From: Ganoderma boninense
Lineage: Eukaryota; Basidiomycota; Agaricomycetes; Polyporales; Polyporaceae
Reading direction: 5' to 3'
Assembly: GCA_002900995.3 (NCBI GenBank)
Contig: CM035314.1
Span: 2,264,115 to 2,328,114, forward strand
DNA length: 64,000 bases
Part shown: piece by piece, positions 4,013-56,375 of the stretch
Numbering within the stretch: the first letter of the stretch is position 1
Layout: every line of letters begins with the position of its first letter
Notes under the pieces: generated by a model
The model's database searches: none
Told to the model about the DNA's origin: nothing
The model's input: only the letters and a program-made list of their open reading frames with translations
Translations under genes and position numbers: made by a program

Positions 4013-4224
4013 ATGCGTGTACAACTCCTTTTCCTTGCTGCCCTGGTGGTTCAAGCTGCATCCCTTATCGTGGGAGCGCCACACAAGGCCCGTGACGGTG
4101 GGTTATCGTGACCCAGCCCTATTGTTCTGCCCTAACACTGTAACTTGGCGTTTTTCCTGCAGGCCCTACCAGCTCGACCGCCTCGATCGGCGAGCCCGAA
4201 TGGCTTTGGGCGGCCCATAAATAA
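4013..4224 (+). CDS. small secreted peptide, putative precursor (type I, P1)
   Basis: Predicted 48-residue protein from two exons, 4013-4097 and 4163-4224, with a GT-AG intron inside a Gly codon. Residues 1-22 are a clear signal peptide (MRVQLLFLAALVVQ onward) ending near IVGA. A short spacer PHKARDG follows, then TSSTASIGEPEWLWAAHK to the stop. The architecture matches the genes at 17452-17651 and 15967-16201: signal peptide, an A-R-D/R-A junction, an intron at the same codon, a TSS/NSS element, then a Trp-Leu motif near the C-terminus. It is too small for an enzyme. With UstYa-like oxidases and P450s nearby, a ribosomal-peptide precursor is the best inference. A small secreted effector is the alternative. 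Confidence 0.72.
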
Positions 4225-5446
4225 AGTTTCTGGTTCGCTCTAGCAAGGCTCCTAGGATCACGAGCATGAGTTGTTATATTGCTTAATATGGTAAGGAGCT
4301 TTTACATTACCTGCGTACGCCGTTCGCAACTCATCGGTACTCATCGCCCATGCCAGATCAAGGCCGCCCCAGGGGAATATTCATTGGACAATATAGTTAG
4401 CCACGGTGGCGACTTGCTCCACTGGTTGTTACGCAATACGTATAAAGCTGCACACATGGCACATTGATCCTCAGGCTGTCCATTCATCGTAGCTCGGACC
4501 CTTGTTTTGTACCTCAAGTGCGTCTACACCGCATTCTGTGGGCAAGCGGGGTCTCCGAACCTCCAAATCGGCTCTTTGCGCTACTTGAGCGGATGTTATA
4601 CTGCCGGAAACTTCGCCACCTACCATTCCTATGAAGGCGACTCTGAGGCTGGTCTCATCCGCAAAGAAGAAGAGTCGGCGGTCACCCTGATAGGCTTACC
4701 AAAGGGTATTCGTATCGACAAACGCGACCTGATTATAACTTGACTCGGAGCGGGACAAAGGTCCCCACTTGAATGCCTTCATCAGACAACACGCTTCTGT
4801 GCTGTGGGAAAGGCTGGGCGCAGGGCTATGTTGACAGCATTATCTAGAAGACGTCAATCAGGAACAACTGATAGCACAGCTGCATGCGGCCGCAGGGGAG
4901 CTGGAAGGTGGCGTGTATACCCAAAGTAAGGATTTGGATATGCGGGTTACAGATACATACGTATGCCGCCCCAGGATGAACATTGAGGCCTTGAGGCCAG
5001 GCGTAGGGAGAATCCGGCGGCGTGTGCTGACGTTCTTCGATGTCGCCGTTCCCTTCGTCATGTCGGAACAGGCGTCGGCTTCGTGGCGTCAACAGCTTCC
5101 GCGGGCCTCGCGCCTGCTGAGGAGACCTGGTATCATTGTTGAGGATGCGTCTAGGATCGTGGCGGAGTTGGAGATATTCGTATACGCCTGGAATAGTAGC
5201 AGGACCCCGCGAACCGCGGGCTATGCATTACTTGACATTTGCACGCTCTTCTATCATCTAGAAGCCGGCTGTGCGTATGCAGGATACAGGTATTTGAATG
5301 ATCGAAAGGTCGCCATGTCCGGTCCAGGGGACCGCAATACACCAGGAGGATCCTTGGGGAACATGGACGACAATCCAGACCTACTTATAAAAGCGGTCAA
5401 CACCTCCACGCACCAATAGACAAGCTACTCGACATACCGCACAGCG
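4225..5446. other. intergenic, unassigned open frames
   Basis: Open frames at 4507-4743 (plus), 4844-5092 (minus) and 4913-5419 (plus) have no recognisable domain, signal peptide or splice partner. The two strands at 4850-5090 are open together, which points to chance. I cannot exclude a small real gene on the minus strand at 4844-5092. Confidence 0.4.
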
Positions 5447-5837
5447 ATGCCTTCCCCTCGCTTCTTCCTCCTCGCGATCCTTCTCGTCGTCTTTGCGACG
5501 TTGGTCGTCGACGCCGCCCCAGTACCCACAGGTACGAGACATGGACTACTAATTTCCTCTCAAAGGAGCCCATGCACGCTCATGCTCATTCGCGTCAATC
5601 CCAGAAGACGCAGACGCAGACGCAGACCACGCGGTTGTCGACGCGATATGGCTCAGCGTCAACGGGCGGCGGTCGACGCCCGAGGATGGTCAGTGCGCTT
5701 GCTCGCCTTCCATCGCATTCTCGAGGCGGCATTGACACCGATCATCCTCGATTCCGGCTCTTGGCCTCCGAAGGACGCCAGGCCTGACCGGCGCAGACAC
5801 AGCCTTGGGCGCGGGCCAGGCCCCTAGACGTTTCTAG
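5447..5837 (+). CDS. small secreted peptide, putative precursor (type II, P2)
   Basis: Exon 1 (5447-5531) encodes a signal peptide, MPSPRFFLLAILLVVFA, to about residue 24. Exon 2 starts at 5605 and reads an Asp-Ala repeat, then DHAVVDAIWLSVNGRRSTPEDG. A second intron probably starts at 5689. It aligns base by base with the gene at 14520-14831, including a shared CATTGAC branch-like site. The acceptor is at about 5773 (stop at 5787) or 5779 (stop at 5837, used here). Without that intron the frame stops near 5726. The dibasic RR just after WLSVNG is a plausible Kex2 site. The paralogue on the minus strand at 14.5-14.8 kb has the same layout. Function as a cyclised-peptide precursor is inferred. 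Confidence 0.68.
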
Positions 5838-6377
5838 AAGTACAATGTCTCCGGTGAGTTGGAACGGCGTTCAAATGTAATCACGTACTGACTGGCCCGT
5901 GCTTCTTCGACAGACAGTCCCCGTGAACAGTGTATTTAACTCGGACTTGCAGTCTTTTGTAACCTATATAACCCAGTGAGATGATGATTGTAGGATGAGG
6001 CATGAGAACACGATGTTAGACTTTGACTTTTGTGCGATGGTTGTATGTGTTCGGACCTTACTGTAATAAAAATGCACCTGAGAGCCTGCGCTATGTATCG
6101 CAAAACGGTCATTCAGCGCACGTCCGGAGTGATGTGTCAAAGGTGTCTGGCGTAGGCAGATCCCCGAAAAGATGCAAGGAGCGGAGAAATTCCATGCACC
6201 AGACGGTGGAGGTGGTGCACGATCGTGCTGGCAGTTCGCAGTTCCTGCGGAAAGAACACGGCAAAAACTCTGAAAGGTTTATGTTCATCAATCAAAGATA
6301 CAGGACATCTCCGCCACGTCGTCGTCATGTCCGCAGCCCCGGCGCACCTCTCTCCCGCAGGCGATCTCGAATCAGAC
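5838..6377. other. intergenic between P2 and UstYa gene 1
   Basis: This is the convergent 3' space of the precursor gene (plus) and the UstYa gene (minus). I see nothing beyond AT-richer untranslated-looking sequence and short chance open frames. Confidence 0.45.
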
Positions 6378-7003
6378 TCAGTGGCTATGGGATGTCCCCG
6401 CCCCCGCGGCATACGCCTTCTGGTTCTCCTCCACCGCCTCGTACACCGCGCGCCAATCAAGGCACCTGCGGACGGGATGCGGCTCGACGGGGTGGATATT
6501 GGACGGGTACTGGTACGGATCGAGGTGCGTGTCGCCGCGACACAGGATCATTTGCCGGATGTAGTTCATGCAATGGCGGGCGGGCTGCTCGTTGCGCTGC
6601 GCGCGCGGCTTTGTGAGCTGGTCGCGCATGACGTCGAGGCAGCGCAGCTGGTGGAACATGGAGACCATGAACGGCTCGTGGTGCGCGCCGAGGTGGATGA
6701 GCCCGTCGCCTGGGACGAGTGCGGCCCAGGCTTGCGAGGCGTTGAGGTCGTAGCGGAGGCCGCTGTCAAAGGCAAAGGCCACGGGCTTGCGCTCGACGTC
6801 CCATACCCCGCCTGGGTGGAAGACAAATGGGGGTTAGATAGGCATGCGACGTTCAGGGCAATTAACTTACCGTTAGGTACCAGCTCGTGCCTCGATTGTC
6901 GGTAGAGAATGGTGAGACTGACGAACTTGTACGTGAAGTTCAGTCCAAGGAAAAGGATGGCAATGGACAGGATGAAGGACTCGAATCGTCGTGGCGAGGA
7001 CAT
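6378..7003 (-). CDS. UstYa-like (DUF3328) protein 1, motifs degenerate
   Basis: Two exons, split at about 6815-6873, give roughly 188 residues. The N-terminus (start at 7003, or 7015 for the upstream in-frame ATG) holds one transmembrane helix, ESFILSIAILFLGLNFTY. The soluble part has the UstYa layout: a Gly-Asp-Gly turn with HLG, then FHQLRCLDVMR, ARHCMNYIRQ and CLDW near the end. The family acts on signal-peptide-bearing precursors of fungal cyclic peptides (ustiloxin, asperipin, phomopsin) in the secretory pathway. Canonical members carry two HxxHC motifs. Here the first is HQLRC (His to Arg) and the second keeps only HC, without the upstream His. It may be a non-catalytic partner or may bind metal differently. 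It lies between precursor P2 and UstYa gene 2. Confidence 0.83.
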
Positions 7004-8107
7004 GCTGGGAGACATTGGGAGAAAGGAGGAGGAAAGGGCAGAGAGGAGCACTGAACCTTGAGGACTCCACTAGGGAACGGATTGCACTGGTTTGGGATGC
7101 GAATGCCAGGATGGCAGTACGAGGGTTGCGCTTAGCAGAGTCCCGGGGAATCGGGAACAGAGGTAATGCCTTCAGTCCTAGACGTAATCGCAGATCGCCT
7201 CCTATAGAAACAGTCAGGTGCGATTTCAAGGCATGGTTCAAAATTAAGGGGCGTACTGCGAGTCCTTGTTCTTCGCAGCTTCGAGTCTCGTTATCGCGCC
7301 CATGGTCCGCATGACTCACAAGCAAGAATTCCTTGTTCGTTTCAACTTCCCAGACGTGAATAGCACGCCATGGGCTGTTCATATGTCGCCGCGGCCATTC
7401 GAGGATCATACTGGAGACAGTGGAGGAATCACAGATGGCAGTTCGTTGACAAGCGTTGTGGCGCCCAAGTGGGTGAGGCGGTGAAATCAACGTTCCGCGA
7501 CGCCACGTGGCCATGCTCATCGTTGTCATCTCCATCTTTGTTTGGTCTCACCTCCATCGAGTCCGACATTCACATCTTCCAGCTTTGTGTCAACTGCGGG
7601 TACGAAATTCGGGGCCTTGAATCGAAGAACCCACTGGAAATTCGTAGTGCGGCGGGCTAATCCTTCTTGGAAGCTGTACTCGTCCGTACCTCGTTCCTCA
7701 GATGATTTCAAGGGACTGCAAGTCCGCTACTGAATCGCCAGTACCGGTGACATCGATTCCGTATCCCAGTTCCCGCTCTGTCTGAGTCAAGAGGTGGCGG
7801 ATAGGGTCCAAACCGCGCCAATCTCCGTCGTTTCGTTGACGAGCTGAGGCCGTCATTTGCTGATGGACCGAGAACCTTATTCAACTCTTCCCATACACCG
7901 GCGGTTCCTGTCGGAACAAGAACATCCGCCCGCATAGCCCAGTTACCAGTGTCCGTGGAGTTTGCAGTGGTGTAACAGAACTTTCCTGTCCGCTGCTCCC
8001 GTTTTGATTAGAAGCTACGCCCCGTGCGTCATTCCGGCCCCGCCGTGAACTCAAGACGTTCTCTTCCTCTCCGACCTCATCCGCAACCTCAATCTCTTCC
8101 CTCTATC
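7004..8107. other. intergenic, no gene recognised
   Basis: This is divergent space between the UstYa gene 1 (minus) and the membrane-protein gene (plus). Several overlapping open frames exist on both strands (7266-7484, 7526-7711, 7542-7733 and 6873-7535), but none shows a domain or a consistent splice pattern. It may be promoter DNA with gene debris. Confidence 0.4.
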
Positions 8108-9163
8108 ATGTCCTCCCAACGCATTCCTCAGGACGAAGACATTGCTCTCCTCCAGAACGGGGAGAATGGCTCACAAGACTTCGACGAGGAATATTCTTTC
8201 AACCGAGCTGGTACCAATTTCCGTGCTCTAACATGTCCACTTATTGACTAACATACACACTGCGCAGCGTCCAAACGACAGCGTCCAGCATGGTACCGGC
8301 CCGAAGGTCGCTCGTCGGCCCTGACATGGGTGCTGGCCCTCATCGTCATTGTCGCTGCCACCGATGGGGTCGCGCTACTGTACATGTCCCGCATCATGGA
8401 CACAGTCTACGCCGACCTCAGCACCGACGAACTCGACTTCGCGAATCCCTACCACGGCCTCGACACGCTCTACAGCTCAGGAAAGATCAACTCGTCTAAG
8501 ATCAATCCCATCCAGAACATCCCCCGCGTCGTCGCACAGGTGTTCCCCGACCGCCCGAAGGAGCTCGCGCCGGTCGGCGAACACGACCTTTTCAACAAGG
8601 TCTTCGGGACGCTCTCCCCGCACGAGAAACATCTCTCCGTGTCACCCAGTGTGCGTGCCCCGCACATCCGCTCTCACAATTTCTGGTACTGACGCACGCA
8701 TGGCGTTAGGTCCACACGATCGCGCAGGTCCGCGCGCTCGACTTCGGGATGGAGGAGTGCTCCCTCGTCATCCAGCTCCCAGGAAATGGAGACCGCATCG
8801 AGGGGGACGAGCCATTCCGATTCAACCAGCTATCCGTGTTCGACGTGTACCGGCTCAACGCGCCCAAGCCTCTGGACGTCCGTAAGCTGTCGTACAACAC
8901 GAAGCCCCCCGTCAAGGAGAGAGTCGCGTCTCTCGCGCTGAAAGGCGGAGAGGAGAACCTCGTAACGACGTTCCCATGTCCCTGGGGAACATTGCACACC
9001 TTCGAGGTCGTATGCGGTGAAGGCTCTGACTGCCTGGTCGATATCTGGTCGAGTCAGAACACGACATACGGTGAACACCCTCCTCTTCCCTGTCATGTGG
9101 TGGCGATGCGTGCTGACTCGGTGTGTGGCAGGCATCTACATGTATCAGCACCAAACGATATGA
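8108..9163 (+). CDS. single-pass membrane protein of unknown function
   Basis: Four exons, 8108-8210, 8268-8650, 8710-9070 and 9132-9163, give 292 residues in frame throughout. The N-terminus is acidic and cytosolic-looking. One transmembrane helix follows, ALTWVLALIVIVAATDGVA, and then a luminal/extracellular domain with a Cys pair (CGEGSDC) and the C-terminal end GIYMYQHQTI. I recall this type of protein, with the same C-terminal end, as widespread in Agaricomycetes and often left as hypothetical; no biochemical role is known to me. Its place between two UstYa genes makes it a candidate accessory factor of the peptide locus, but it could equally be an unrelated resident. The start ATG has a good context (ATCATGTCC). 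Confidence 0.75.
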
Positions 9164-10660
9164 ACGAACGCAAGGAAGTCCGTCGTTCGTCAATGGGCTG
9201 TGAACAGCAACGATTAGTGTATTTTTGGACATCTGCGCCCCCGCCGCATCTCGTGTTCTTACACAGCGCGTGGGACCACTGAAAGCCGGGATTACGAGCG
9301 AGAACAGTAGCACGGAACCTCGCGCCCACGAACTCCCGCTCCACGCCGCTGACGCTTTAGGGTAACCAGGAAATGGGTTTGTGGGTGCACCTCCGACTCT
9401 TGTAGATAAGGATCTGCGCCAATCTGAAATACAAAACCTTTTACTCGTACCTACATTTGACCCTTAAACTCAAAGAAGCGCAAATAGGGCATTCCAGAGA
9501 CAGGGCATTCCAGAGACTGGTACTGGTTCATGTTAACCAACCAATTGGGAAACCTAAATACCTCGCTATCACCACTCTGGCACAGAAGACTCACAAAAGG
9601 GATCAAAGTCTCCGGAAGGCAATGCAGTCTCACCGTGATCCGGGACCGCAAACTCACTTCCTGTAACCCAAATCCCGCTGGAGCGTGGTATGTGCGAGCG
9701 CACTTGTTGCTCGTCTTGCACCACCACGCCCGTGGCGCTTCCCAGCGTGATCACGAATGATCAACGCGTTCGCGGCTATCCACGCGCACAGGCAGCGAAG
9801 GTGATCATGACAATCGAACAAAGCGCGGTTGACACAAATGATGCGATGTTTCGATGATCATCAACAAGCTGTTCACAATACGCGTTGAGTCGTTACTCAA
9901 CGTCAGCGACGGACTGTGCCCGTACCTCTTGGAAGCGCGACGTACCGCACCGGAACACGGGCGGAAGCCCTACGCAGCTGGGAAGCCTCGTCGACGTCTT
10001 CGAGGGACGTATGACACGTGGTAGAATGGAGGGCACGGTAGGGCACGGCGTCCTGGGTGTCTTCCTGTTCCCACAGACCGTGATTGTCCTTGGACTCTGA
10101 ACCCAACTGGGGTAAGTCTCATACGACTTGCGGTCCTCGGCGCGCAGCCAAATTCACGTTGAGAGGCCTAGGGAAACGTAATCAGCGCAGTGCGAGCGCT
10201 GCGCCGCTGCCGGCGAGCGGTATATTTGACAAGCTTGACTGGCAACTGAGGCAGCTGCGACGCCGGAAGCCTCGACATGGCTGTCCCTGTCAATTTCCCA
10301 TCTCGTTAATAATCACGAGCCCGCGGGGTACGATCTGACCTGTCGCGACGGGCGATAGTTTGGTACTAGGTTGAGACATGACCTTGTCTGAGGTTGCCGG
10401 AGACCTTCTCCCGCCTGGAAGCTTCCGGGTGTTCGTAACTGTAGGTGGCATACAGCGGGCCTGCGAGCATGTCGGAACCCGGACTCTAGGCAGTACCAGG
10501 CCTGGCGTTCCTTGTCTGGCGAAGAGTTAGGGTGGGTCAGCGAGACGGTGGAAACTGTTGATTCGCAGCGGTGCGCGGGACCGCCACGACAATTTCCTGT
10601 CATCTTTCTCGGGTATCGCGTGTCTAGTCCACCGACACACTCACCACGTTATCCCTCTCC
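9164..10660. other. intergenic, nothing recognised
   Basis: 1.5 kb without a supportable gene. A direct duplication, GGGCATTCCAGAGACa, occurs at about 9487-9515. Short open frames on both strands carry no domain. The last 100 bases are CT-rich, as is usual for a fungal promoter, and belong to UstYa gene 2. Confidence 0.45.
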
Positions 10661-11350
10661 ATGACCTCTCAGCACGTACCCATCCTCATCCTCCTCGTCC
10701 TTGCTGCACTCAACGTCTATATCGACTTCCTCCATGTGCAAGAGACACATCGAGTCGCCGTCGCGCGACCACCGCCATTAAACCACTACAGTAAGGAACC
10801 GAGATCTTACCTGCTCGCCCGTCGCTGACTGTGCACGTCGTGAACAGGCTTCATCGACGAAGACTACATCCCTCGTATGCCCCTGCCTAGCGCACACCGC
10901 GGCGGGGCCAAGTGGATACCAGAAGAGAGCGTACGGTACGCGCTCACGTCCCCCGAGGCGTTCGACGAGTGGCTCTGGACGGCGACCGTCGGCGACGGCA
11001 ACGTCCACTTCGGCGCGAACCGCCGCCTGTTCGTCGTCTCCGTTACGCACCAGATGCACTGCCTGCGCTCCGTCCGCGTCGCGCTCGAGGACGCGGGCAT
11101 CCCGCACGGGCACGCCGTCGGCCACCTCACGCACTGCCTCAACTTCATGCGCATGCACACGCTGTGTGCGGCGGACACCACGCTCGAGCCGCACGACGCG
11201 TTTGCGCGGAACTACACGCGGGAGAGGGCGGGCGGGGAGCATGTGTGCATGGACTGGGACGCGTTCTACAGGGACATGCGGACGAATTACCTGGAGTGGG
11301 ACGAGTTCCGGAAGGGCGAGGGAGAACGGCCTGCGATGACATGGGCTTGA
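10661..11350 (+). CDS. UstYa-like (DUF3328) oxidase 2, motifs intact
   Basis: Two exons joined across an intron at about 10792-10848, giving roughly 210 residues. An N-terminal membrane anchor (PILILLVLAALNVYIDF) starts almost at once. The catalytic half has both HxxHC motifs intact: HQMHC and HLTHC. These are followed by MHTLCAADTTLEPHD, the usual UstYa signature, and a C-terminal CMDWDAFYRDMR. Members of this family catalyse oxidative ring closure on ribosomal peptide precursors in the secretory pathway. The intact motifs make this the likely active oxidase of the locus, with gene 1 (6378-7003) as the degenerate partner. It is convergent with the Rieske-DUF455 gene, whose stop lies about 110 bases downstream. 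Confidence 0.9.
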
Positions 11351-11460
11351 ACTGGACAGCGGCGATGTTCTGATTTTCCCGATTAGATATACCGTGCTTG
11401 CTGGTTGTACAACCGTAGCCTGGAAGATGCGGCTGAATGTCAACGATAAGCACTCCACCA

Positions 11461-13768
11461 TCAGAGAGCACTCACATGCAAAACGTCACGCAGCAGCGCC
11501 CTCATAACCAACCGCAACATCCGCCTGCGGCCCTTCGAGTTCCCCAGAGCCTCACCCCGCTGCATCTCACCCTTCAGGTTCTCATAGAATGCCGGCGTTA
11601 GCCCCGCCTTCTCCCTGTCGACCGCGTTGAATGGGCCCTTGACGTCCCCCCTCCACCCCTTCTTCACCTCCTCCCGGAACGTCGCGACTGGGTCCACGCC
11701 CTGCTTCGCGCACACCCACGTGAACCAGCGGTGGCCGGTCGTGACGTGCGTCACCTCGTCGTGGTGGATCGTCTCGAGCGCGCGCACGCTCTCCACGTCG
11801 CCCGCCTTCCGGAACTTCTCGATCGTGCCCGGGTTCACGTCGAGCCCGCGCGCCTCGTGCACGAGGTGGATGATCGCGAGGCGCGCGCGCAGCGACGCAA
11901 ACGTCACCTGCGCCGACTCCCACAGCCCCGCGTGCACCGGCAGCGAGCCGTATGGGGTCGCGGGCGAGAGCGCGGCGAGGCGCGCGGTGAGCAGCGAGAA
12001 GTGCTTCGACTCGTCGAGCGCCATCTTGGTGAAGTCCGCGAAGAAGGCGGGCGGGAGGTCTGGGTGCGAGGGGCCGTAGCGCGCGATGATGTCCCAGCTG
12101 CGTGCGCTCGATGAGAACGCCATCATGGAAGACAGCGGGCGCGAACTTACGCAAGGTCGATGCTAGGAACAGATGTGAGATAACTGCTCGCGGATGTGCT
12201 GTTGGACAGTACTCACGCCCATTGTTCGATGTTTGCGAGCGCGTGGAGCATGACAGCGCGGTTCCTCCGCTTGTTGATCTTGCTCACGCCCACTGTATTG
12301 CGAATGTACAGCTCTTCGCGAGGCGGTACGTCCGGAGGTCTAGGTGCTTTCGACGAGCGGTGGCCAATGGACTTGAGTTGTCCTGTGCGGAAGAGCTGCA
12401 CAGCGTGCCTGGTACGTTGGACCTGTATCAGCGTAAGCCAGCAGTAGCTGTTTTCCTCGATAATGCTTGAAAGAAACACGGACGCTGAACGGCAGCACCT
12501 CCTGTTCATCACGACGGCAAGGAAAACATTCTCGAGATGGGGGCATGGTCGTGACGAATATGCGCTGTGGACGATGTGAATGGGCCTGAGACTGCGCTTT
12601 CACTGTCACTCTAAATCACCTCGCCTAGGCGAGACTCACGATACCTTCCAGCAGCTGCGGGTGCTCTGAGGAGATACAGAGTTGCTGACGCCTACAAGGT
12701 AGTAGTTTTGGAGTTTTTACTATCACGCGATCACTGACCCCGGATGACACTAGACGGGCCATAGCACGATGAACGGTTTCATGTGTGGTGAGCAAGTCAT
12801 TCTTCGATTCCTATGTTGATGTGTGAAGGTTAACCGATGACAGAGAAGCCTCCCTTTTTACGCTCGCGTATGGATGACACCAGCTCGAACATGGTCGCGC
12901 TCATCACGGATAGAACAAAACATTGGTAAGAAGACCGCAGACTCACCTTCAACATGGGATCCGGGGTATTGAGGATGACAACGGCCCATTGAACCAAGGT
13001 CGTGGGCGGATTCTCCACCGGAACCAAGGGTTCTGGCTCCTTCGGAGTTGGGGAGGAAGTGGAGAGATGGGAGAGGTCGACAGGAGGTGGTGGCGGGTCG
13101 GCGAACTCTGCCTTAGAGGTCGACCTAAGGTCTAGCTGGGGATAGGTCGAGACCTGCGCACCTTCGGATACTGGCCTGAACTCAACCAGACGCCATCCTT
13201 TTCCTCCTTCCGGTGTCTCTACCCAGATATACTCCGCGCCATCCTCAGTCCGGATATCTGTGGCGTACGTGCAGGCCTTCATGCCTGTTTCGCTGTGGCC
13301 CGTCTTCAGGTCAAAATCGTACCTGAGTTACGGAAGGTCAGCGCGATACGCGAGCCCGAAGTTGGGAAGCCATGATGAACCTATGCCATGGGCATACCGC
13401 AACAACCCCGGTATCGCACTCCTCGATCTCTGCGTGCGACATATCCGCTCCCATGTGTGGGCAGTTGGCCTCCATGACATATATCTGGTCCCGCAAACTC
13501 TGCATGGAGCGGGATGCTTCGTCTTCGCCGCTTTCGGGAAGTTGGCCAGGCGAGAGGCGGAACAAAATCAGGGGATGGTAGTCGCCGTCTTTCGAACGTA
13601 GTGTAAGGAAGAATCGGGAATGTGTTGCGAGGTTCTCAAGGGGGGAGATTCTACGAGAGGAGAGGAGTCGTAAGCTCACCGTCAACATCTGAATTCCAGC
13701 CCAACCTGCCTCAACCAGTCCTGTGCTCCAGCGCGCATGGAGGTTTTGGTGCCTGAAGCGGTAGCCAT
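11461..13768 (-). CDS. Rieske-DUF455 fusion protein
   Basis: Minus-strand multi-exon gene. The N-terminal half is a Rieske [2Fe-2S] domain with both ligand pairs visible, CPHMG and CPWHR, followed by DFDLKTG. After a Pro-rich linker comes the DUF455 domain, a ferritin-like helical fold: AVVILNTPDPMLK, HAVQLFRTGQLKSIGHRSS, HALANIEQWA, DESKHFSLL and HHDEVTHVTTGHRW. The His/Glu residues of the last motifs would bind metal. I recall this fusion from other fungi; its reaction is not known to me. The first exon is uncertain. A well-placed ATG at 13768 opens a short frame, but joining it to the Rieske exon needs a non-obvious splice. The alternative start is 13688. The gene may be a bystander or may supply an oxidation step to the peptide locus. 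Confidence 0.85.
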
Positions 13769-14519
13769 GGTGTTCTTATGTACAAACAGTGGAGGAATTG
13801 CTTTCTGACCCGTAGCGGGGTAAACAGAGCGTCGCTGGGGATGTTTCGATTGAGCCAGAAAATCAAATGAATCGAATACTGTAGACGCACACGGATATGA
13901 TACCCTCCTCTCGACACCACCGGTAGTATGCGAAATCTGGAATGGAGTCGTTGTACAGCAGTTGGGCGGAAAAGTAGCATGAAGGAGAAGAGAGAGAGTC
14001 GCACGCAGGCGTCGGCAAACGTTGGTCCCGTTGACGCCCAGCATGCGATCTGAAGTTTGTGGTTCCCCTCATTTTCAACCAAAATCACGACGACATTCGA
14101 GCGACTGCTCTTCCTCTGCTCTCGCTTCCTTAGAAATTATTTCAACGAACTGCGGACGATATGCTTTGGCTTTGAGGTGCGTGTCACCCTTGTCGTTTCG
14201 TGATAATATCGTCGCTCGCACCCCGGTCATAAACTCCCTCCGTCCTGCTCGATATAGTTACTGTGCCCACTGCTGGGCTCTGAGAGTGCCTGACGCTCTC
14301 CCGCCATCGAAAAGGTATGTCCTCGTCTGATCATGCATCGTTCTACGAAATTTATTGGATGGAGATACCCGGATTGAATGGTTTGCAGACGTTGCTTGTG
14401 GAAGGTAAAACCTAGCCAGTACATCACGTTTGAACGCCGTTCCCCCGTGACATACTTCTGAAGAAGTTTAATTTCTAGAAAAATGTAGGGGGTAGGGTAC
14501 GAGGGTACGTCCGCGACTG
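13769..14519. other. intergenic, nothing recognised
   Basis: Space between the Rieske-DUF455 gene and precursor P3. The frames present (for example 14022-14330 plus and 14227-14427 minus) have no domain or signal peptide. Confidence 0.45.
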
Positions 14520-14831
14520 TTACCCCTGGGATGCTCCAGAGACTACAGGCCCGAAACGAGGACGGTCGCAGTCAATGGCTCCTGAAGAAATTGAAGGCGA
14601 GCATGCACACTTCAATACCATCCTCGAACCTTCGGCTGCCGCTGACGCTGAGCCACTTCGCATCGATGACCTCGTGGTCTATGTCCTCTACAGATGCTGC
14701 GAGTGAGCAGATTACTCTCTGGTCTGGGGACGAGGAATGCCAGTACCTGCGGGAAGTGGCGCACCGTCGACAACCAACGCCGCGAATACGATGAGGAGAA
14801 TCGCGAGGAGGATGTATCGAGTTGAAGGCAT
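14520..14831 (-). CDS. small secreted peptide, putative precursor (type II, P3)
   Basis: Minus-strand paralogue of the gene at 5447. Exon 1 encodes the signal peptide MPSTRYILLAILLIVFAALV and ends at the same codon position as in P2. Exon 2 reads EDIDHEVIDAKWLSVSGS, then RRFEDG. The second intron (donor just after the GAG GAT codons, acceptor TGTAG near 14544) gives a short last exon ending at 14520. Unspliced, the frame would stop at 14572. Conserved against P2 are the signal peptide, the DHxV-I/V-DAxWLSV core, a dibasic RR shortly after it, and EDG. The conservation, across about 9 kb and opposite strands, argues for a selected gene family. Its role as precursor for the neighbouring UstYa enzymes is inferred. 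Confidence 0.7.
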
Positions 14832-15966
14832 TGTACGGTATGGCGAGTGGCTGCTCTATCGGTTCTTGTGGATATTAACGGTTTTTATATGTAGCCCGGG
14901 CATGCGGCATTGTAAGCATTCTTCTCGGGCCTCTCTCGCAAGGGAGGCCCGCACGATGCCACACTAACTCCCACAGACATATACACGACTTCCGAATGGT
15001 AGACGAGCGAGGGACGCTAAGTAAGCTCGCCCGTGGTTCGCGGTGCCTCCGATTCTGGGAGTATACACATATCCTCATTCTTCCCCTAAGCAGGCACCAC
15101 GTTCCGCGAAAACTGTCGCCGCCACGTTCGCGACACGCCGGAGGCGTCACTTTCGACATAAGGGTGACCGTGTCGGTCTGATGTCGAATTCGAGGGTGTC
15201 AGCTTTCACCCTACACGCTCAGGCTCTTCCGTTCAACCTCCAGCACTCCAACCTGTGCTGTGCTTGGTCATTTGTCAACGAACATCTGCGGGATACAGCT
15301 GTCATGTCGAGTCCTGCCATTCCCACAGGTGCGTAGAGCATGATATCAGACAACTAACCAAGGGCTTTGTGCCGCTGGAGAATACGGCGATCAGATAGGA
15401 CCTGTCGAGGCGACGATAGCTTCGGTACTCTCGGGGGTTCGTCTACGGTTCCAACTCTGGTGCAGCTGTCATATATAGGAATGCCAGTGGGCGGCGGCCT
15501 GTCGGAGAGTGCAAGTGCCGCGCATCATGGCTATGCTCGACTCTCAATGCCATGCCGAGAGCTGTCCACGCGCCCAAACTATTCAGCGACGACCTCTCGG
15601 TTCTGGATCTGGAGTACCGAATGACAAAGGCGAACGTCACTCCTGGACCTGCACGACGGGGCCGTTTTCACACCCCAAGATGGAAACAGCAAGATCCTGG
15701 ACCCATCTGCCATTCTATGCCTTGCCAATGTCATGTCTTTGACGTATAGCGTTACGACAACTTCAACGAGGTATGAATACTATAACATCCACGTTCTCTA
15801 CTAGCTCACTGCATGCGCATGGGAAATATCTATAGAACGGCGACAGTGCATGATGAGCGCCAAAGGAAGGTATAACGTGATGTGAGAGCCCGTACCCAGC
15901 AGAGTTAAACATTCGTCGTTGACTCTAGGATGCTTGTACCACGCTCAGGCACCTGTTGGCGACGCC
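14832..15966. other. unassigned region, possible gene debris
   Basis: Open frames at 15043-15336, 15367-15624 and 15552-15749 on the plus strand could be exons of one gene, since introns with usable ends can be drawn at about 15330-15363 and 15437-15479. I recognise no family and cannot keep a frame across the whole stretch. A decayed enzyme gene is possible. Confidence 0.3.
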
Positions 15967-16201
15967 TCAGGACTTCAAGTTACGACGAGAAAGCCATCCA
16001 ATGTCGGTCATTGGGAGCATCGTTGCGCCGACAGTGATGGAACTATTAGTGGCTGCAGGATAAATGTTGAGTATTAAGGTTGTATAACCACCACGGGTTT
16101 GTGCACGACAACTGACCATCGCGAGCCTCTACCGGTGCCCCCATAGTAAGAGATACACCCTGTAGCATGAGGGCAGCAAGGTAGAGACTGAGGATCTTCA
16201 T
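15967..16201 (-). CDS. small secreted peptide, putative precursor (type I, P4)
   Basis: Two exons encode about 56 residues. The signal peptide MKILSLYLAALMLQGVSLTM is followed by GAPVEARD, then the intron, then TNSSITVGATMLPMTDIGWLSRRNLKS. It is a paralogue of P1 (4013) and P5 (17651): the same APxxARD junction, intron in the same place, TSS/NSS just after it, and a Trp-Leu motif near the end. A dibasic RR directly follows GWLS, so Kex2 and carboxypeptidase trimming would leave WLS at the C-terminus. Short length, lack of any domain and repetition of the pattern favour a peptide precursor or signalling peptide. Confidence 0.72.
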
Positions 16202-17451
16202 CCTGTATGTGCGGATGTGAGCTGAAGTCGTACTAGAGAGAGGTGTGGATGGGTGTTCATGAAGCCTCCTCCGCGGTCTTTAAACAACACTGGCCCTCCG
16301 CGGCAATCCAGTGGAGCAGCCAGGCCTTATTTATTTTACAGTGTCATGTTTGTATATTCCACTCAGCGGCGCCGTTGTGCCCGCAAGTCGAAAGGTGGTG
16401 ATTTTCAGCAATAATAATACTGGCGTCGTTTCGGACTCGGAGTCCCCGAAGAGGCCGCGGACAGTGGATCAGACCGCAGACAGAACCCTAAGTAAGAAGT
16501 AGCACGCCTGAACAAGAAACTGACTTACTGGATAACAGAGTACAGAGACTTTGAAAGCATCGCGCCAATGCTGGGGGTGAGTTCCCTGCCGCTAGACTCT
16601 GACGAGGGCTGAACCAGAGCCTGCGTGACAGTGGCACTGAAGCACGGTCCTATGGAGCTCAACCTGTTACTACTAGGCGTTCTTAGGCCTATTTTTGTGG
16701 CGAATAGGGCAGTAAAATTGGTATGTCTCAATCGCGTCACGGATATGATGAACATAACGTTCCGAGTCGGAACAGGAAGCTTGATCCCAGCCATCGAGGA
16801 GCGCCACAAACCTGAGCGGATCGCCGGAGGGGAAGATGGTCGTAATGCATGGAGTCATTCGGGCGCAGCCTTCGTTGACAGCCGGATCTGAATCGTCTGT
16901 ATCCAACTGTTAAGGCTGGTCATGGTACGATCTGTTGCTGTCCTACCCTTGGTTGTCTGAAATCGGTACTACTACGTAGCTGATCATAGCTGTGCTGGGC
17001 GACGTCATCCCGCGGAATTCCCAGAGCAGTCCGCAGAGATGTGCGCGCGACCAATCATTCAAGATGTTCCTTCCCGCTGCACTTTTCGGGACAAATCTGG
17101 ATGTGCGATGATACCTCTGGTGGCCGTAGCATGCGGTACGGACGCGATTGAGATATCAAGGTGGGTTCTGCGGCGTCTTGAGTAGACAAGATCCATATGG
17201 TGCCATCGCCGTGCGTTGTCCGTAACAAGTAATAACCAGCGGAATGAATTATGAGCCCGCTATGCCATCGAGTGGGTGGACACTAAGTACTATAGCATCA
17301 TCTCTCCGACTTTTAAGGCTCAAAAGACCTGCAAAACCATCGCGGCAGTTGTCAGAGACGAATGGAGAATACAGGCACTGGTGCGAGAGGTCCAAGTGCG
17401 ACCTACCAGGAGACATATGCCCCATGCCAGTGCCTTTGACTTCGGGGTGCT
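16202..17451. other. intergenic, unassigned
   Basis: Minus-strand frames at 16525-16809 and 16673-16906 overlap each other in different phases. I found no UstYa or P450 motif in them. The stretch may contain remnants of another cluster gene, but I cannot support one. Confidence 0.4.
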
Positions 17452-17651
17452 TCACACGAATAGCCAGTCAGGCTCGCCCACAGAGACGTCCGAACTTGTA
17501 GTATCTACAAAACGAACGTTGTAAGTATTGCGCTGCCAGTGGTAGAGCGAACACTCCACGACAACCCACCGGCACGGCCCTCGACTGGCCCACCCAGGAC
17601 GATGGATGCAGCTTGCAGCATGAGGACGAGGGAAAGTAGTCGGGCACGCAT
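17452..17651 (-). CDS. small secreted peptide, putative precursor (type I, P5)
   Basis: The smallest of the set, about 44 residues in two exons. The signal peptide MRARLLSLVLMLQAASIVLG is followed by GPVEGRA, the intron at the family position (GTGGGT donor, as in P1), then DTTSSDVSVGEPDWLFV and stop. Compared with P1, the segment S-I/V-G-E-P-E/D-W-L is conserved although the genes lie 13 kb apart on opposite strands. Here the peptide ends two residues after the Trp-Leu, so the mature C-terminus would need no cleavage. An internal start or an unrelated secreted microprotein cannot be excluded. Confidence 0.72.
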
Positions 17652-18335: not shown

Positions 18336-19418
18336 CTAGTTCCCCTCCGACCAACCGATGTTGTCCGACCACGCCGCGTAATCATTCGTCTCCTTCGTCA
18401 GGTGTGCAATGTATTGCTGCACGTACCCGTTCACATCCTTGCCCAGCAGCAGCCGGTGCGGCGGGTTCGGCAGCTTGCTCAGCTCAAGCACCTTCTGGAC
18501 GCCTTTCTTCGGGTCCCCGAATCCGAGCTTCTTCTGTGCCTCCGCTATGTTGCCCACACCGTCGAACATCTTTCGGAACCCGGCCGCGGCGGTCTCCCCG
18601 TACGCGGGGTGCGGCGGGATTTGCTGCACTGAGCTCCCGAACTCGGTGGTGAAGCCGCCGAACAGGACAGACGTGATCTAAGTGTGTATCATGGTAAGCT
18701 GTTCTGTGAATGTAATGGAGCGATGGAGGGGCTGATCGTTACCTTGATATTCCATGCAGGGTTCAACTCGCTGTGCAGAGTCTCCGTGAAGCCGTCGAGC
18801 GCTGTTTCCACGCCACACATTTGAGAAGACATGTTCTCGCCTGAGCAAAAACACGAATTCTACCCACCGTGCTTCGCCGCAGTGTAGAACCCAAACGTGG
18901 GCAGGGTCACCAGCGCGACCCCGGCGCTGTTCTGGACGAGGTAGCCCCCCTGCGGCGTGTTCTCCTCGCGGAAGAACCGCACCGCCTCCTGCGATACGTG
19001 CACCGCGCCCCAGAAGTTCACCTCGAACGTCGCGCGCGCCGCGTCATCTGGCACGCCCTCCGCCTCGCCTGCGACGGCGAACCCGGCGTTGTTGAACACG
19101 ACGTCGATGCGCCCGAACGCCGCCTTGGCCTTGGCGAAGGCTGCAGTGATCTCGGCGGGCTGGGAAACATCGAGGCGGAGAACGAGGAGCTGCTCGGAAG
19201 TGTACTGGGACGCGAAGTCGTTAAGGACTTCGGGCTTGCGAAGGGTCGCGACGACGCGTTCGCCGTTGGCAAGCGCGAGACGCGCCATCTCGAGGCCGAA
19301 GCCGGAGGATGTACCTGTGACTGTAGTAAGATGCATTTAGTCAGCCGATGCCTATATGGATATGGCCGTACGCAAAACATGGAGACGTACTCAGCCAAAC
19401 ACGAGAAGAGGACGACAT
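18336..19418 (-). CDS. short-chain dehydrogenase/reductase (SDR)
   Basis: NAD(P)-dependent oxidoreductase of the classical SDR fold. A small first exon starts at 19418 (SSSSRVWL) and joins TGTSSGFG (cofactor Gly motif). NNAG follows, then the catalytic YTAAK; a middle exon (GVETALDGFTETLHSELNP) and a last exon end at 18336. The total is about 285 residues, normal for the family. The start is chosen because the intron supplies the missing beta-1 strand before the Gly motif; starting at 19336 would remove it. It lies between precursor P5 and P450 copy 2, both on the same strand, so a tailoring role in the peptide locus is possible. SDRs of this subtype act on many alcohols and ketones, so no substrate can be named. 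Confidence 0.9.
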
Positions 19419-20233
19419 GGTTGCAGGAGGAGTGTATGAGTATGGTGTTGTCCCGCTGTGGCAGGCCGACTGTTATATGTCGGCCCAAGGAGATTCCTTG
19501 GTCATCCAGCAAGCATGCGACTGTATCCACGGCTTACAACAAGCATCCATTGCCTACTGTAAGCCGATGTACTCGGGAGCGACGTTGCATGGAAAAGCTC
19601 CCGAGAGAGTCCGCCGTGCTCTGTAAGAACGTCGATCGCCCTTAGGGATAGGGGCAGCTGCGGAGCGATGGCGTGGATCGCCGGCACAGGAGATCAAGCT
19701 TCAAGAGACAAGAGTAGCGTCAACGTTCGAGATTCGGAGACTTTCGGAGATCGTGGTGGATCAATTCAATAATTCAATGGACGACTGTAGGAGTCTGTCG
19801 AAACATTTTCCACCAAGGCGTTTTGGGGCCGGGTCAACTTCCTCGTCAAGGTAAGGCTGAATGACTAGTCGGATCGGCTCTGGCATTCACTATTCATTGA
19901 GTTCGTGTGTTCGCCGGCCGTGCCAAACTCCAGGTTAATCGGCACGGACGTGGCAGTGTGGGATAGTAGAGCTATCGCTGCTCGTTCAAGGTCAGCATGA
20001 AGTATGTGGAAGCTGGAACTTGACCCACGGTATTCTAATAATCTGGTGGTCATCGACGTTACAAGTTTAACTTTCCAAGGTTGTGTAGAAGGAGGGGGAT
20101 GAAAGAGCATGCGAGTAAGATTGACCCAGAGCACAAGTGGCTACATCACGTGATCTGAATCCGTCACACTCGGTCGATTCTGGCGGGGGAGAATGTGCAA
20201 AAAACTATAGGCTCAAGACTAGCGTCCTCTATC
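19419..20233. other. intergenic, nothing recognised
   Basis: Promoter side of the SDR gene and AT-richer spacer. No supportable gene. Confidence 0.45.
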
Positions 20234-28284: not shown

Positions 28285-31200
28285 CTACGCATCGCAGGGG
28301 CAAGAAACACGATCCTCTACTAGTGCAACGGAGGGTAGATGCAAGGACGTGGAGGGTCCGCTCTTTTCAGCAATGCGAGCTACTCCGAAAGGCTGTGGGT
28401 TAGCGGCAGGCAAGCTTCGAACGTAGTAGCATCCTGTCTTGAGACCTGAACGCCAGGCGTGGAGCTGGATGTCCATCTATGGCGACAGGTATCAGCGAGG
28501 TTCAGCGAAGGGTGGCATGGGACTTGCCAGGATTTGAGGGGTAGGGGAAGAGATGAACATAGTGAGGGACTGGCTCTGGTCAATGAACGGGCCTTGTTCG
28601 GCGGCGAGGTTCACGAGCTCCACGGGGTCGAGCTCAAACGCAGTCTTGAAGACAGCTTTGATGTGATCGGGAAGATTAGGGACCGACTGAACGGAGCCTG
28701 GAAAGGAGCAGATTAAAAGAGGTAGCACTGGGAGGGATATGGGCGCACCGTGCGCGGCAAGAATGTGATCTCTGACCCCGTCTGTCCATAAGCCACGGCG
28801 TTCAAGCGCAGTAACGAGCGGCCTAGATATCTCATTGAAGTTACCGCTGAGGAGGCAGAATTGGACCACATTGCTAGAAAATGTGTCCAGCAGTGAAGGT
28901 ACGTTAATGGCATGGGAGGACTGCGATACGAACCTGAGGTACGGGTCGATCCCTTCGGAGTTCCCGAAGAGCTGAGCTGTGGAGGCCGTGGGCATTTGAG
29001 CAGTTAGCATGGAGTTGCGAAAACCAGTGCGCTTGATCTTGTCACGGAGAGCGTCGAAGTCGAACTTGTCGGAGGTGTCGGCGTTCCACATGTCTACCTG
29101 TAAGATGCCTTGCTCCGCTGGAGAGCCGACCCAAGCGTCGTATGGACCGAGCCGGTCTGCGAGGTCGCTGCTGCTGTCCAACGAGGCGTGATAAATGGTC
29201 TTGAAAATTTGGCGATTGAGGGCGTGCGCTTCTGAGGAGGCGAACGGGAGCTCGGAGAAGCCGAAAACGTCCGCAAGTCCCTGTACGCCGACGCCTATCG
29301 ACCGGGAGCGGAATGCAGCCACCGCGGTGTCAGTGGTCAGGTAGTCAGCGATGTCGATAATGTGGTCGAGCCCGCGAATGACGAGCTTGGTGACGCGATG
29401 CAGCTCCTCGTGATCGAATGTACCGTCTGCGCGCAGGAAGCAAGGGAGACACAGAGATGCCAAAGAGCACACCGCGGTTTCCACAAGAGAAGAGTACTGC
29501 ACGATCTCCGTGCAGAGGTTAGACGATTTGATGACACCTAGGTTCATGTGATTGTTTTTGCCTGGAAAACAGGCGATGAGAACGTGGACCGACAAAGCCA
29601 CAGCGACGCACTGTTAACATTGTCGGCGTACATCAAGAAAGGCGAACCGGTTTCGCAGATTGCGTCAGCGATGACCTCCCATAGTGCCCGGGCTCGGATA
29701 GACGCGGCACGGACGCCTCTACGCTCGTACTCTTCATAAGCAGTGTCGAAAGCGGTACCGAAAAGGTCCGATAGAGCAGCCACGCGACGCGGGTCAAACA
29801 AACTCCAAACCCCGTCATCCTCAAGACGTCGCATGCTGAAAGAGAGACAGGCATTAGGGGAAGGAGCGGGGGAGGCGGGAGATAGACACTGGAAGAGAGC
29901 GTACAATATATTGGGGATCCAGAGCGCTGGAAAGATATGGTGGAACCGATACCCAGCCGCCGCGCGAGTAGTGCGACAGAGGATGAAGTTGCGGACATCC
30001 ACATGCCATATGGGCAAGTATGCAGCGGCCGAGGACGCCCGGTGCCGACTGGACCGGGACCAGTACGACGCGAGGGAGTCGTACACCTTGAGGAGGGGCA
30101 TGAGTCCGGGGTGCGATCCAGAAACGGAGCCCCTTTGGAAGAAGTCAGGCGAAGTTGCTCTGGGATCAGCAAGGGCAGGGGGCTTACTTGGTAGCGGGAA
30201 CATCTGCGAGGCTGAGGCCGATGCCACCGTCAGCGGCCCACAGAGCGGACAATGCGGAAAACCCGGGAGTCGCAGATTTGGCGTCAAAGGCAAAGGGCTC
30301 GTAGGTAAAGCAGGACGCGAAGTGTCAGTTGGTGAGACCGCCGTTCCACAAGGTGGGCGAGGCGAACAACACCTTTCTAGTTGATAACAAGTCGTAGGTG
30401 GCGAGCACGTCATCAAGGCAGTGGCCGTGTATACCAATGGCGACGCGCATGAAGAGAAACTGGAGGCGTTCTAACAGCTCGCGGCCGTTCTTCATGAGGT
30501 AGGACTTTTCGAAGGTCTGCAATGCGCGACTGGAAGAAGTGAGCGTGTGTACAGAAAAGGGGCACAGCCAACATACTACGTGAAGTCGAAGTCACGCTTG
30601 TGCATGATGGCGGCGTCAAGCGTCTCTGCGTGCTGGTGAACGACGGAAACGAGCGCCCCAGTAAAGACGGGATCCTCCGCTGCGAAGAAGTTAGGAACAG
30701 GAGGCAGGTGCGTGCAGGGACCGGTACCATTTTCGTACGAGAGCACCCAGGTACTGAAACGCTTGGCGACACGCTTGTGGTGGTAGCACGCGTAAACCCG
30801 GCCAGCGAGGACGGAGTAATCTGGGTGGCAGGAAGAGAAAGTCGAGACAATCTCGGCAACGAAGATCTGCGCTAGGTGAATGACAAGACGAGGAAGAGAA
30901 CTGCAAGATCTCACCAGCAGCGCTTCCGCGGACATGGTGTCAGCCGGGAGCCGGGTTTGCAGGCTTAACACGACTCTGTAAAAGCGTGGTGAGGGGCGGG
31001 ACCGAGAGCGACGACACTGGAAAGGCTCACTCTGGCAAGACGTCGGAGCTGATGCTTAGGCCCCATGAGAGCTACAGACGGGCGGTGAGGGAGTGGCCGA
31101 GAGGGGGGGGGGGCAGGAAGGGGCGCAAGCAATGCATACGGATTGGAGGCAGAGTTGGACCTGGGGCAACGAGTAGAAGTCAGCGAAGGAGTGCGGCCAG

Positions 31201-53171: not shown

Positions 53172-56100
53172 ATGAGTATGGTCCCAGCAGACAACACGTC
53201 TGTCGACCTGCTGACGCGTAGCGCGGCCTCGAACAAAATCGGTAAGTGTGAATGGGGACATCTCAGCAGGTTCTACAGCAGCTGACAGCGGGTTCGTATG
53301 CAGCTGGAACCAATGCTCTAGACACGGCTTCGGCTACTAGAAGCACAGCGTGCGTCGAGGCTGCGAGCGAGGGTGGGGCTCAGTCAGGTGTGTACTACCA
53401 CTGTGTGCAGGTTGCCGGTGCAAGATAGCTAAACGACGGCGTCCGTTACAGTGCTCTCGCATAACATACGCGAGGCATTGGTAGCTCCGTCTAGTGCGTC
53501 GACGGAGACGGTTGTCGGTACGTCAGTGTCACTAGCGCCAGTAGGTGTGCATCGTATCGAGTACTGACATACATGTCTTTTAGGTCGTGTTCGCGAATTA
53601 TCTGCGAACGGTGTCATATTGGAGTGGTACACGGCTGGTGCAGATGAGTTGGATTTTCTCTACATGCTAATGTGCACGCTGACAGTGACAGATGTGTTTG
53701 ACTGGGCGACGATTCCTGACGTCCTTGAACCAGACGACCTGATAATAAATGCCATGCTCCCCACGCTGTTGGGGATGTACCACATGTGGCGCGCAAACGA
53801 TCTACGGGAGGTTGCCCACGCTCACAACATCCCACTCCGAATGCACGAAAGCGCAACGGACCTGTTGCAGACGTTGCATGGGCACGCGTGCAGTGCGCAG
53901 TGTGCGCGCGTGTTGGTGGTATTTCGAGCATTGCACATACGTCGCCAGGCGTCCCAGGTAGAACGGTCGAGGAACATTCGTTTGCACCGGGCTGTCCCCA
54001 CCTCACATCCTTACACCGAGATAGCTAGCGAGGAACTTCGACGCAAGATAATACACGAGTGGCAAGAGGCGTTTTCGACAGAGCAGTTCCGGATGGCTGT
54101 GTGTGCGCCGTGTGGGCGCCGTGTCCTGTCTCGCAAAGTGCTGTCTGTTGCTCCATCTGACGTTGACCTTAGGCTTCTCAGGAATGAAGGCCTCCCCCGC
54201 AAAGTCCTGCCCACCACATATAATTTCGCTGCGTATGGGGAGGCGCTGTTGGACCCGCGAGGTCTTGTGGATAGGGACCAACTAAGTTTCATACATATGT
54301 GTGAGACATGCCAACGGGACTTAGTCGTCAAGCACCGCATGCCAAGGCTGTGCCTGGCGAACTGGTTGTACTACGCGATTGATGAACTCGAACCGGGAGC
54401 GAGATGTGCTTTCGACAACTCTACATCTACTGAGAGACATTTGCTCGCACGGGCTCGGAACAGTCGGATTTCGTACCGGTTTTGCGAACTCACCCCTGGG
54501 CTGTTGCAGGAAGGTACTACACGCTCAGGAACGAAGTCGCACAGTCAGATGTGCATGAAAGGTAACGTACTTATTATGCCTCAAAATTCGACCGTTCTCA
54601 GCAGAGTGCTGCCTCCACCGCCAGAGATGGTTAGGGACACAGTTTGTGCTGTGTACATAGGGAGGACAAGACCGACTCAGGAGAACATCAGTAAGCTGGG
54701 CCCGATTCTCGTGAGGAAGTCCAGGATGCTGAGTATGATCCAGTTTATTGTTCGGGAGAACCCTCACTATGCTTGCGACACTGACTTCCATGGTTTGAGC
54801 CAGCGCAATTTGGATGGGCTATTTGGGCCTGGAACTGAGAGTCAGGATGAGGGAATACCATGCGGACTCAATGTTGGGTTCATCGAGGACAGCGTCGCTA
54901 CGCGGTCATCCATGTCTGGGTATACAGACCGCGAGCCTAGGGAAATAGACGATTATCCGATCCAGAAGGGCCTGCTAATGGAGAATGTGGGTTACACAAT
55001 GGGCAATGAATCACCGCAATCTTATAACACCATGAAACTGAAAGCGCTGTCCCACTGCTTGGACAAGGGTCGTGTTGTTCGCTCGCTAGGTGGTGAAATG
55101 TTTGTACCGGACTTCGAGAACCCGAGCTTGCTAACGTGGCTTTTTCCGCATCTCGATCCTTGGGGCATCGGTGGATTTCATGAGCCAAACCGGCTTGTGC
55201 CCATAACGATGGAGGAGCAACTCAAGTATCTTCTGGAATTGGACAGTGGCAGGTTTGAACGGGACCCCGACTTCGCGTTCGTCTACTACAATATCCTCCA
55301 AAAAAAGGCTGTATGTGAATCAGTGCGTTTTCGAGTCAAATTATCAGAGCAGAGTAGAATAGTCCGGGAACTTCTGAGCATAGATCCCGCCGAAGTTGAG
55401 CGCCTTATTCGCAGTTACAAGGTGAATCCGCGATACGAGGCCACCGACCCTGAGCAGACTCGCATGCTGTCTCTCATCAACAGTGTTGGTACCTTGCTGC
55501 ACAACGTGCCAGGCACAGCAGGCTACAAGCTCAAAATGAGAAATGAGATTAGGTCACTGGTAAACATGCGAGGAACACCAGCTTTTTTTGTCACATTGAA
55601 CCCGTCAGATATTAATCACCCTCTTGTACGGCTTCTCGCAGGCGAAAATATCACACTGGAACACCTAGAAGCAGGGGAACAACTTGACAAGTGGGATCGG
55701 ATGCTACTGGTTGCTGAGCAACCCGCAGCATGCGTGAAGTTTTTTCACCAAATGATCTCCAAATTTATATCTATTGTCTTGCGTTACGGCCGTAATGAAC
55801 GAGGTCTTTTGGGTAAATGCACCGGTTACTATGGAACTGTGGAGACACAGGGACGCGGAACCCTCCACTGCCATATGCTCATATGGCTACAAGATCATCC
55901 CTCTCCACAAGAAATGAGAGACATGATGCGAGAGTCAAGCGAGTACGAAGAAGATGTGTTCACGTGGTTGGAGAGTATCATTAAATGTGAATTACTGGGG
56001 ACCACTAGAGTTGTCACGGAATCGACCGGAGCGTTGCAATGTCCGCACCTAACTAAGCTTCCGGGGTACGTTGACCCAGGGACACACCTCGGACCGTCAA

Positions 56101-56369: not shown

Positions 56370-56375
56370 GCAAAT

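Follow-up and report, generated by a model that had tools for sequence, protein, structure and literature searches.

The occurrence of two genes of the UstYa (DUF3328) family amid five very small genes on a contig of Ganoderma boninense raises the question of which molecules these putative oxidases act upon. The stretch under study, hereafter the window, comprises 64,000 nucleotides of contig CM035314.1 of assembly GCA_002900995.3 (C11:2264115-2328114, C11 denoting this contig), and positions given without a contig name are those of the window; the genome searched amounts to 55.6 Mb in 74 contigs. We consider it probable that the five genes encode single-core ribosomal precursors, which are secreted and oxidised by a paired UstYa enzyme.

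Five small genes with a Trp-Leu tail

All five small genes of the initial annotation are present and their starts, at 4013+, 5447+, 14831-, 16201- and 17651-, are correct. In our models, each being the preferred choice among several possible splice pairs, g1 (4013..4224, plus strand) has exons 4013-4097 and 4163-4224 and encodes 48 amino acids (aa) with the tail PTSSTASIGEPEWLWAAHK; g2 (5447..5787, plus) has exons 5447-5531, 5605-5688 and 5774-5787, giving 60 aa with the tail EDADADADHAVVDAIWLSVNGRRSTPEDGRQA; g3 (14520..14831, minus) is assembled from exons 14831-14747, 14696-14619 and 14542-14520 into 61 aa with the tail ASVEDIDHEVIDAKWLSVSGSRRFEDVSGASQG; g4 (15967..16201, minus) from exons 16201-16117 and 16052-15967 into 56 aa with the tail TNSSITVGATMLPMTDIGWLSRRNLKS; and g5 (17452..17651, minus) from exons 17651-17570 and 17504-17452 into 44 aa with the tail DTTSSDVSVGEPDWLFV. 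The intron described as lying at the same position is in phase 1 in all five genes, with donors at nucleotides 85, 85, 85, 85 and 82 after the ATG, and the short C-terminal segment with Trp-Leu (W-L) is likewise found in every tail: GEPEWLWAAHK in g1, VDAIWLSVNGRR in g2, IDAKWLSVSGSRR in g3, TDIGWLSRRNLKS in g4 and GEPDWLFV in g5. Three types of tail can be distinguished, GEPxWL (g1 and g5), DAxWLSV...RR (g2 and g3) and DIGWLSRR (g4), with W-L standing five residues from the C-terminus in g1 and two in g5, and an RR following the motif in g2, g3 and g4. Each gene holds one W-L segment in a product of 44-61 aa, and the layout that had been claimed, one core per precursor and several precursors, unlike the repeat dikaritins, is thus borne out. 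The N-termini of all five are hydrophobic according to a simple hydrophobicity score (not SignalP) and are putative signal peptides. Two points are additional to the earlier description: a second intron is modelled in g2 and g3, the acceptor and third exon of g2 having been picked to match the end of G. adspersum P0002 (EDGRQA), and tyrosine is missing from all five tails. Also, none of the five precursors has a cysteine four residues from its end, the C-terminal CaaX being the defining feature of basidiomycete lipopeptide mating pheromones.

That these genes are real and form one family is supported by several observations. An architecture rule (a product of 40-75 aa with a hydrophobic N-terminus and W-L, encoded with a phase-1 donor at nucleotides 79-88 and a short intron) returns five matches in positions 1-22000 of the window, exactly g1-g5, and none in the remaining 42 kb or in the 10 kb upstream, while a first-order Markov null gives a mean of 0.14 and a maximum of 3 matches in 200 runs; the rule was written after the genes had been seen and is one of several rules and thresholds tried, of which a stricter one missed g4 and g5 (null mean 0.03, 60 runs). 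In 210 kb made up of six other UstYa-bearing stretches (C6, C12, C4, C21 and two further places on C11, named C11a and C11b) the rule has a single match, at C12:1581534.

Allelic comparison points in the same direction. The small contigs C23 and C21 resemble alternative haplotypes, the former of C11 and the latter probably of C4, and lend themselves to comparisons of alleles. C23, 58,939 bases long and compared over 20 kb, has 88-89% identity to the corresponding part of the window. Alleles of g3, g4 and g5 lie on it, two of which the architecture rule finds while missing the third; no allele of g1 or g2 is seen in the 20 kb compared. Over 492 aligned coding bases of g3-g5, the alleles differ by 27 mismatches and by no gap event (94.5% identical), against 279 mismatches and 25 gap events in 2718 bases of other DNA of the locus (89.7% identical; Fisher p=0.0006 for mismatches and 0.024 for gap events), and the introns have 26 mismatches and 1 gap event in 251 bases. 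The predicted introns diverge as non-coding DNA and the exons less, which supports the gene models. No difference between the alleles is seen in the segments DHEVIDAKWLS, LPMTDIGWLSRRNLKS and SDVSVGEPDWLFV.

One precursor subfamily has orthologues in G. sinense (P0001, E=2.4e-12) and G. adspersum (P0002, E=1.5e-11): the end of g2, EDGRQA, is as in P0002, and that of g3, EDVSGASQG, resembles EDASGVGVS of P0001. No homologue was found with g5 as lone query. Taken together with the second precursor family presented below, database relatives amount to four proteins, from G. sinense and G. adspersum only. Two 61-aa precursors of G. sinense (P0001 and P0004) bear a UniRef name starting with 'Transporter', which is a misfit.

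The UstYa pair and its other genomic sites

The two UstYa/DUF3328 genes reported among the precursors are confirmed by matches to PF11807 at 6378-7003 (E=1.6e-12) and 10661-11350 (E=3.9e-13), one exon per gene and both above the Pfam cut-off. They differ in their copper motifs, HxxHC...HxxHC. The gene at 10661..11350 (plus; exons 10661-10790 and 10848-11350; 210 aa) has HQMHC and HLTHC and keeps both motifs, and we refer to it as subtype B, whereas that at 6378..7003 (minus; exons 7003-6871 and 6811-6378; 188 aa), subtype A, has HQLRC and PARHC and is thus without two of the four histidines. The genome gives 19 matches to UstYa exons, distributed over C4, C6, C12, C21 and three places on C11, and 13 of them fall into one subtype or the other by motif. 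Subtype A (window, C11a, C11b, three on C4 and one on C21) has the pattern HQLRC ... xxxHC, the second histidine of motif 1 being changed to arginine and the first of motif 2 being lost; subtype B (window, C11a, C11b and three on C4) has two HxxHC motifs. Neither subtype includes the remaining six, two on C6 and four on C12, of which C12:1540481 is also without a second full motif. For all six A genes outside contig C21, a B gene lies at most 7 kb away. This pairing, which is new relative to the initial annotation, extends to the phylogeny: in a tree of 17 matches (leaving out the C21 A match and C12:1579542 and including five ungrouped ones) the six B sequences group together (98/98), as do the six A sequences (90/88), and in both groups the C4 trio splits from window, C11a and C11b. 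This common branching order of the two groups suggests that A and B duplicated together, as a pair.

The DUF3328 hydroxylase CctR offers a reference for what the lost histidines could mean. According to its report, DUF3328 proteins can be binuclear copper oxidases, the motif of CctR binds two coppers per monomer at the dimer interface, and a change of a conserved histidine or cysteine abolished activity (PMC12435403). By analogy, since CctR needs these residues, it is unlikely that subtype A works as a normal homodimer. We infer that B is its partner, and the UstYa enzyme may be a heterodimer of a canonical B and a histidine-poor A subunit. With B as the only query, no solved relative was found by sequence, the best PDB match (E=0.5) being an unrelated protein. 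AlphaFold models of the C-terminal exons, built from a two-sequence alignment, were poor (mean predicted local distance difference test score of 38.6 for B and 43.6 for A) and were left unused.

The A+B pair occurs at six sites in the genome, which are the window, C11a, C11b and three sites on C4, and precursor-like small genes are found at five of them. At C11a (2.08 Mb) the A, B and But2-like genes are similar in DNA to their window counterparts, and two small secreted-looking genes, at 2080758 and 2081572, both end in ETDWL-stop. For the gene at 2081572 the sole GT donor leading to this end is a weak GTGCAA, in phase 1, and its model is uncertain; a junction ...EGRAT-VEDV... was wrong and had been used in the ten-sequence tail alignment, in one homologue search and in the C11a genome query. 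The pattern E-T-D-W-L-stop has two matches in the 55.6 Mb, which are these two genes, each less than 2 kb from a UstYa match.

A distinct situation is observed on C4, where a second precursor family lies on the minus strand at 837610-837844, 848495-848739 and about 862996-863229, each member being about 1 kb or less from an A gene, with B near. Its members share the leader MKLSF...C..DE.DIPxGA...DVPG.AVDAM.KR and a phase-1 intron after the signal region, and the cores following KR are QLECDDRYPENF, QLECDMANF and CTGTDF, with a tyrosine in one of the three; in G. adspersum and G. sinense members the core is CVGVDF. The family was chosen by eye from 25 listed candidate pairs, many of them unrelated genes, and was later supported by further searches, a genome search with one member returning only the three C4 genes and a copy on C21. 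Judged by these sequences, it follows the ordinary logic of precursors of ribosomally synthesised and post-translationally modified peptides, with a constant leader, a dibasic cut and a variable short core.

Genome searches were carried out with five precursor queries (g1, g2, g4, a C11a gene and the C4 family). Those with g1, g2 and g4 returned only window genes and C23, and the C11a query, with its wrong junction, also matched C3:1424283 (E=0.013, with an internal stop); apart from this weak match, every place found is a UstYa locus or a haplotig of one. On C12, three paralogous small secreted-looking genes (1534653+, 1535758+ and 1542090+) lie close to two other UstYa genes; they have MRGLLAI...AAxxAPV with a GTAAGT donor directly after, and are possibly a third precursor family. 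Tandem Repeats Finder, applied to one C12 and one C6 UstYa stretch, found only units of 7-15 bases.

Proposed substrate of the UstYa pair

In the mechanism that we favour, the precursor peptides would enter the endoplasmic reticulum, as their hydrophobic N-termini suggest, and a membrane-bound binuclear-copper UstYa enzyme, with its catalytic part facing the organelle lumen by analogy with the CctR model, would oxidise the C-terminal segment, with Trp-Leu or its vicinity as the most likely position. Kex2-like or other proteases would then free the product, the RR of g2, g3 and g4 being a plausible Kex2 cut. That the UstYa enzymes act on the window peptides is inferred, and W-L is a plausible candidate for the modified core from the tails themselves: as W-L closes both C11a proteins and only two residues come after it in g5, any C-terminal core must contain it, and its position at or near protein ends in C11a, g5 and g1 favours W-L being inside the product. 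As for the chemistry, the lack of tyrosine in the five window tails excludes the Tyr-ether type of dikaritins for these genes, and a Leu-Trp bond of the moroidin type is a speculation by analogy.

A number of observations weigh against this interpretation. None of the five window genes encodes a dibasic site in the stretch that joins the signal region to W-L, and the ratio of nonsynonymous to synonymous substitution rates between alleles is only mildly low, 0.68 overall on 9 synonymous and 18 nonsynonymous changes in three pairs (1.19 in exon 1 and 0.43 in the rest, on few changes). The C11b pair (C11 2172765 and 2179530) has no recognisable precursor in 20 kb, contig C21 gives an A match without a B match, and C11a gene 2080758 has a donor that fits the consensus but stands at nucleotide 106, so that intron position varies across the wider family. 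As for the pattern searches, the GEPxWL DNA pattern has six matches (reversed control, one), three of which fall in two window genes and a C23 allele and the other three on C1, C4 and C8, and the reversed control of E-T-D-W-L-stop also has two matches, leaving only location as informative. The genome searches are insensitive, the g1 query having missed its paralogue g5, and absence elsewhere is therefore weak evidence. Finally, DUF3328 enzymes are reported to serve non-ribosomal pathways too (PMC12048977), and the conservation of W-L could also mark a recognition element.

This last possibility, in which W-L serves as a conserved element for recognition, or as a follower, while the modified core lies elsewhere in the tail, for example in the variable stretch between signal peptide and W-L, is in our view unlikely, although it has arguments in its favour. 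Indeed, when ten precursors and alleles are aligned, W and L alone are invariant in the tail, in the C4 family it is the leader that is conserved and the core that varies, and the VDA-x and IDA-x preceding W-L in g2 and g3, respectively, recall the VDA-M that precedes KR in the C4 precursors. However, W-L would need to have a follower role, being C-terminal in the two C11a genes and having just two residues after it in g5, and the stretch before it consists largely of Ser, Thr, Asp, Ala and Val.

Secreted, unmodified signal or effector-like peptides, released by Kex2/Ste13-type cutting while the UstYa pair acts on something else, seem distinctly unlikely. Such processing would be consistent with the RR that g2, g3 and g4 have behind the motif and with the DADADAD stretch of g2, which we take to resemble dipeptidyl-peptidase spacers. 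Peptides detected in Agaricomycetes and derived from Kex2-processed repeat proteins (KEPs) are reported to be linear and minimally modified (PMC9769878). Yet on C4 the A+B pair is accompanied by a precursor family of another kind, which is hard to explain if the pair ignores peptides.

It is very improbable that the pair tailors a terpenoid, a non-ribosomal peptide synthetase (NRPS) product or a polyketide, the small genes being chance neighbours. DUF3328 proteins are known from pathways of these types (PMC12048977), and the cluster is flanked by P450-like genes and a short-chain dehydrogenase gene, but no match to a backbone synthase came up among the 31 Pfam-scanned open frames of the window (of 106; at least 130 aa) and tiny precursors occur at five of the six A+B sites. 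That the small genes are chance open frames, as their shortness and their being known here from sequence alone might suggest, is hardly credible given the Markov null and the allele and orthologue evidence.

The window holds further genes besides the precursors and the UstYa pair. At 8108..9163 (plus; start and first splice sites modelled, end 9163 read by eye) lies a gene with a membrane-anchor-like hydrophobic stretch and a But2-like C-terminal domain, which has a related gene in C11a (L026 6315-7082) and a short match in C11b; a DNA match is also seen at C11:2141528 (2.14 Mb), without a listed UstYa. The short-chain dehydrogenase (approximately 18360..19420, minus; tested frame 18860-19336, PF00106, 4.4e-29) adjoins the cluster and is a possible tailoring enzyme. 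Related P450-like genes are observed on both flanks, at about 2.0-2.8 kb (plus) and 21.8-22.7 kb (minus), and also in L030, as judged from an EWKPERW motif and blastn similarity, the single Pfam match being below cut-off. Rieske and DUF455 open frames in tandem at 11461-13775 (minus), perhaps one gene, were considered as pathway enzymes and are probably bystanders, since DUF455 has no other match in the genome and no blastn similarity to it was seen at the other loci compared. Further away are exons of a ribonucleotide reductase large subunit (28492-30470, minus) and a Helitron-type element (Helitron_like_N, DUF6570 and PIF1 helicase) in two adjoining open frames (53568-59447, plus).

Comparison with known peptide systems

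Plant burpitides of the stephanotic-acid/moroidin group, in which a copper enzyme joins Leu and Trp side chains, provide a precedent for Trp/Leu oxidation, but the enzyme belongs to the BURP-domain family and the residues, Leu2 and Trp5, are three positions apart, whereas W-L is adjacent in the window (PMC11253845). CctR shares HxxHC...HxxHC with window subtype B, as described in its report (PMC12435403); it is, however, a homodimer, and window B adjoins an A gene without two of the conserved histidines. From the A+B pairing one would expect a heterodimeric copper enzyme whose site is asymmetric. A Trp cross-link, if true, would be a new bond type for the UstYa/DUF3328 family; to our knowledge, none is known from it.

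KEPs have a signal peptide, to which the hydrophobic N-termini of the window precursors may correspond, and dibasic sites, which some window members share, but they are found by their repeats, and the lack of repeats indicates that the window precursors are not KEPs. In a fungal survey of these proteins, one KEP type lists Ganoderma and DUF3328 genes are near 103 of 1680 basidiomycete KEPs (6.1%), and its authors suggest either that the phyla might not share one cyclisation motif or that Basidiomycota might scarcely cyclise such peptides (PMC7329392). In Pleurotus, 16 UstYa-like genes are reported (PMC8893723). A lichen study describes no repeats near DUF3328 genes and raises a single core peptide as a possibility, in a passage that names no precursor (PMC12048977); a basidiomycete single-core UstYa precursor is not named in literature titles and abstract openings among the matches listed. 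Single-core precursors beside UstYa pairs would be a testable answer to this basidiomycete gap, in which substrates exist without repeats and repeat-based searches would miss them; if true, such a pathway would explain the many mushroom UstYa genes as opposed to the few UstYa-linked repeat precursors. The broader proposal of a UstYa pathway of the basidiomycetes' own, with many tiny single-core precursors in each genome, oxidation at Trp or Cys in place of Tyr and an obligate heterodimer of which one subunit has lost half of its copper histidines, all missed by repeat mining, is a tentative one, which we find possible but doubt on balance.

The closest systems are the dikaritins of ascomycetes (ustiloxin, phomopsin and asperipin-2a), in which a secreted ribosomal precursor is clustered with UstYa/DUF3328, reported as their class-defining enzyme (PMC12048977), much as the putatively secreted precursors of the window are; the ustiloxin cluster is described as having two UstYa-type genes, ustYa and ustYb (PMC7099791). 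Unlike dikaritins, which have their repeats in one gene, the window has one core per gene and several genes. Contrary also to the ether cross-link from tyrosine to another side chain, given as the defining feature of dikaritins (PMC11253845), the window has no tyrosine in any tail and one UstYa subunit without two conserved histidines. The cluster thus sides with the dikaritins by its enzyme and stands apart from them by its chemistry and precursor layout.

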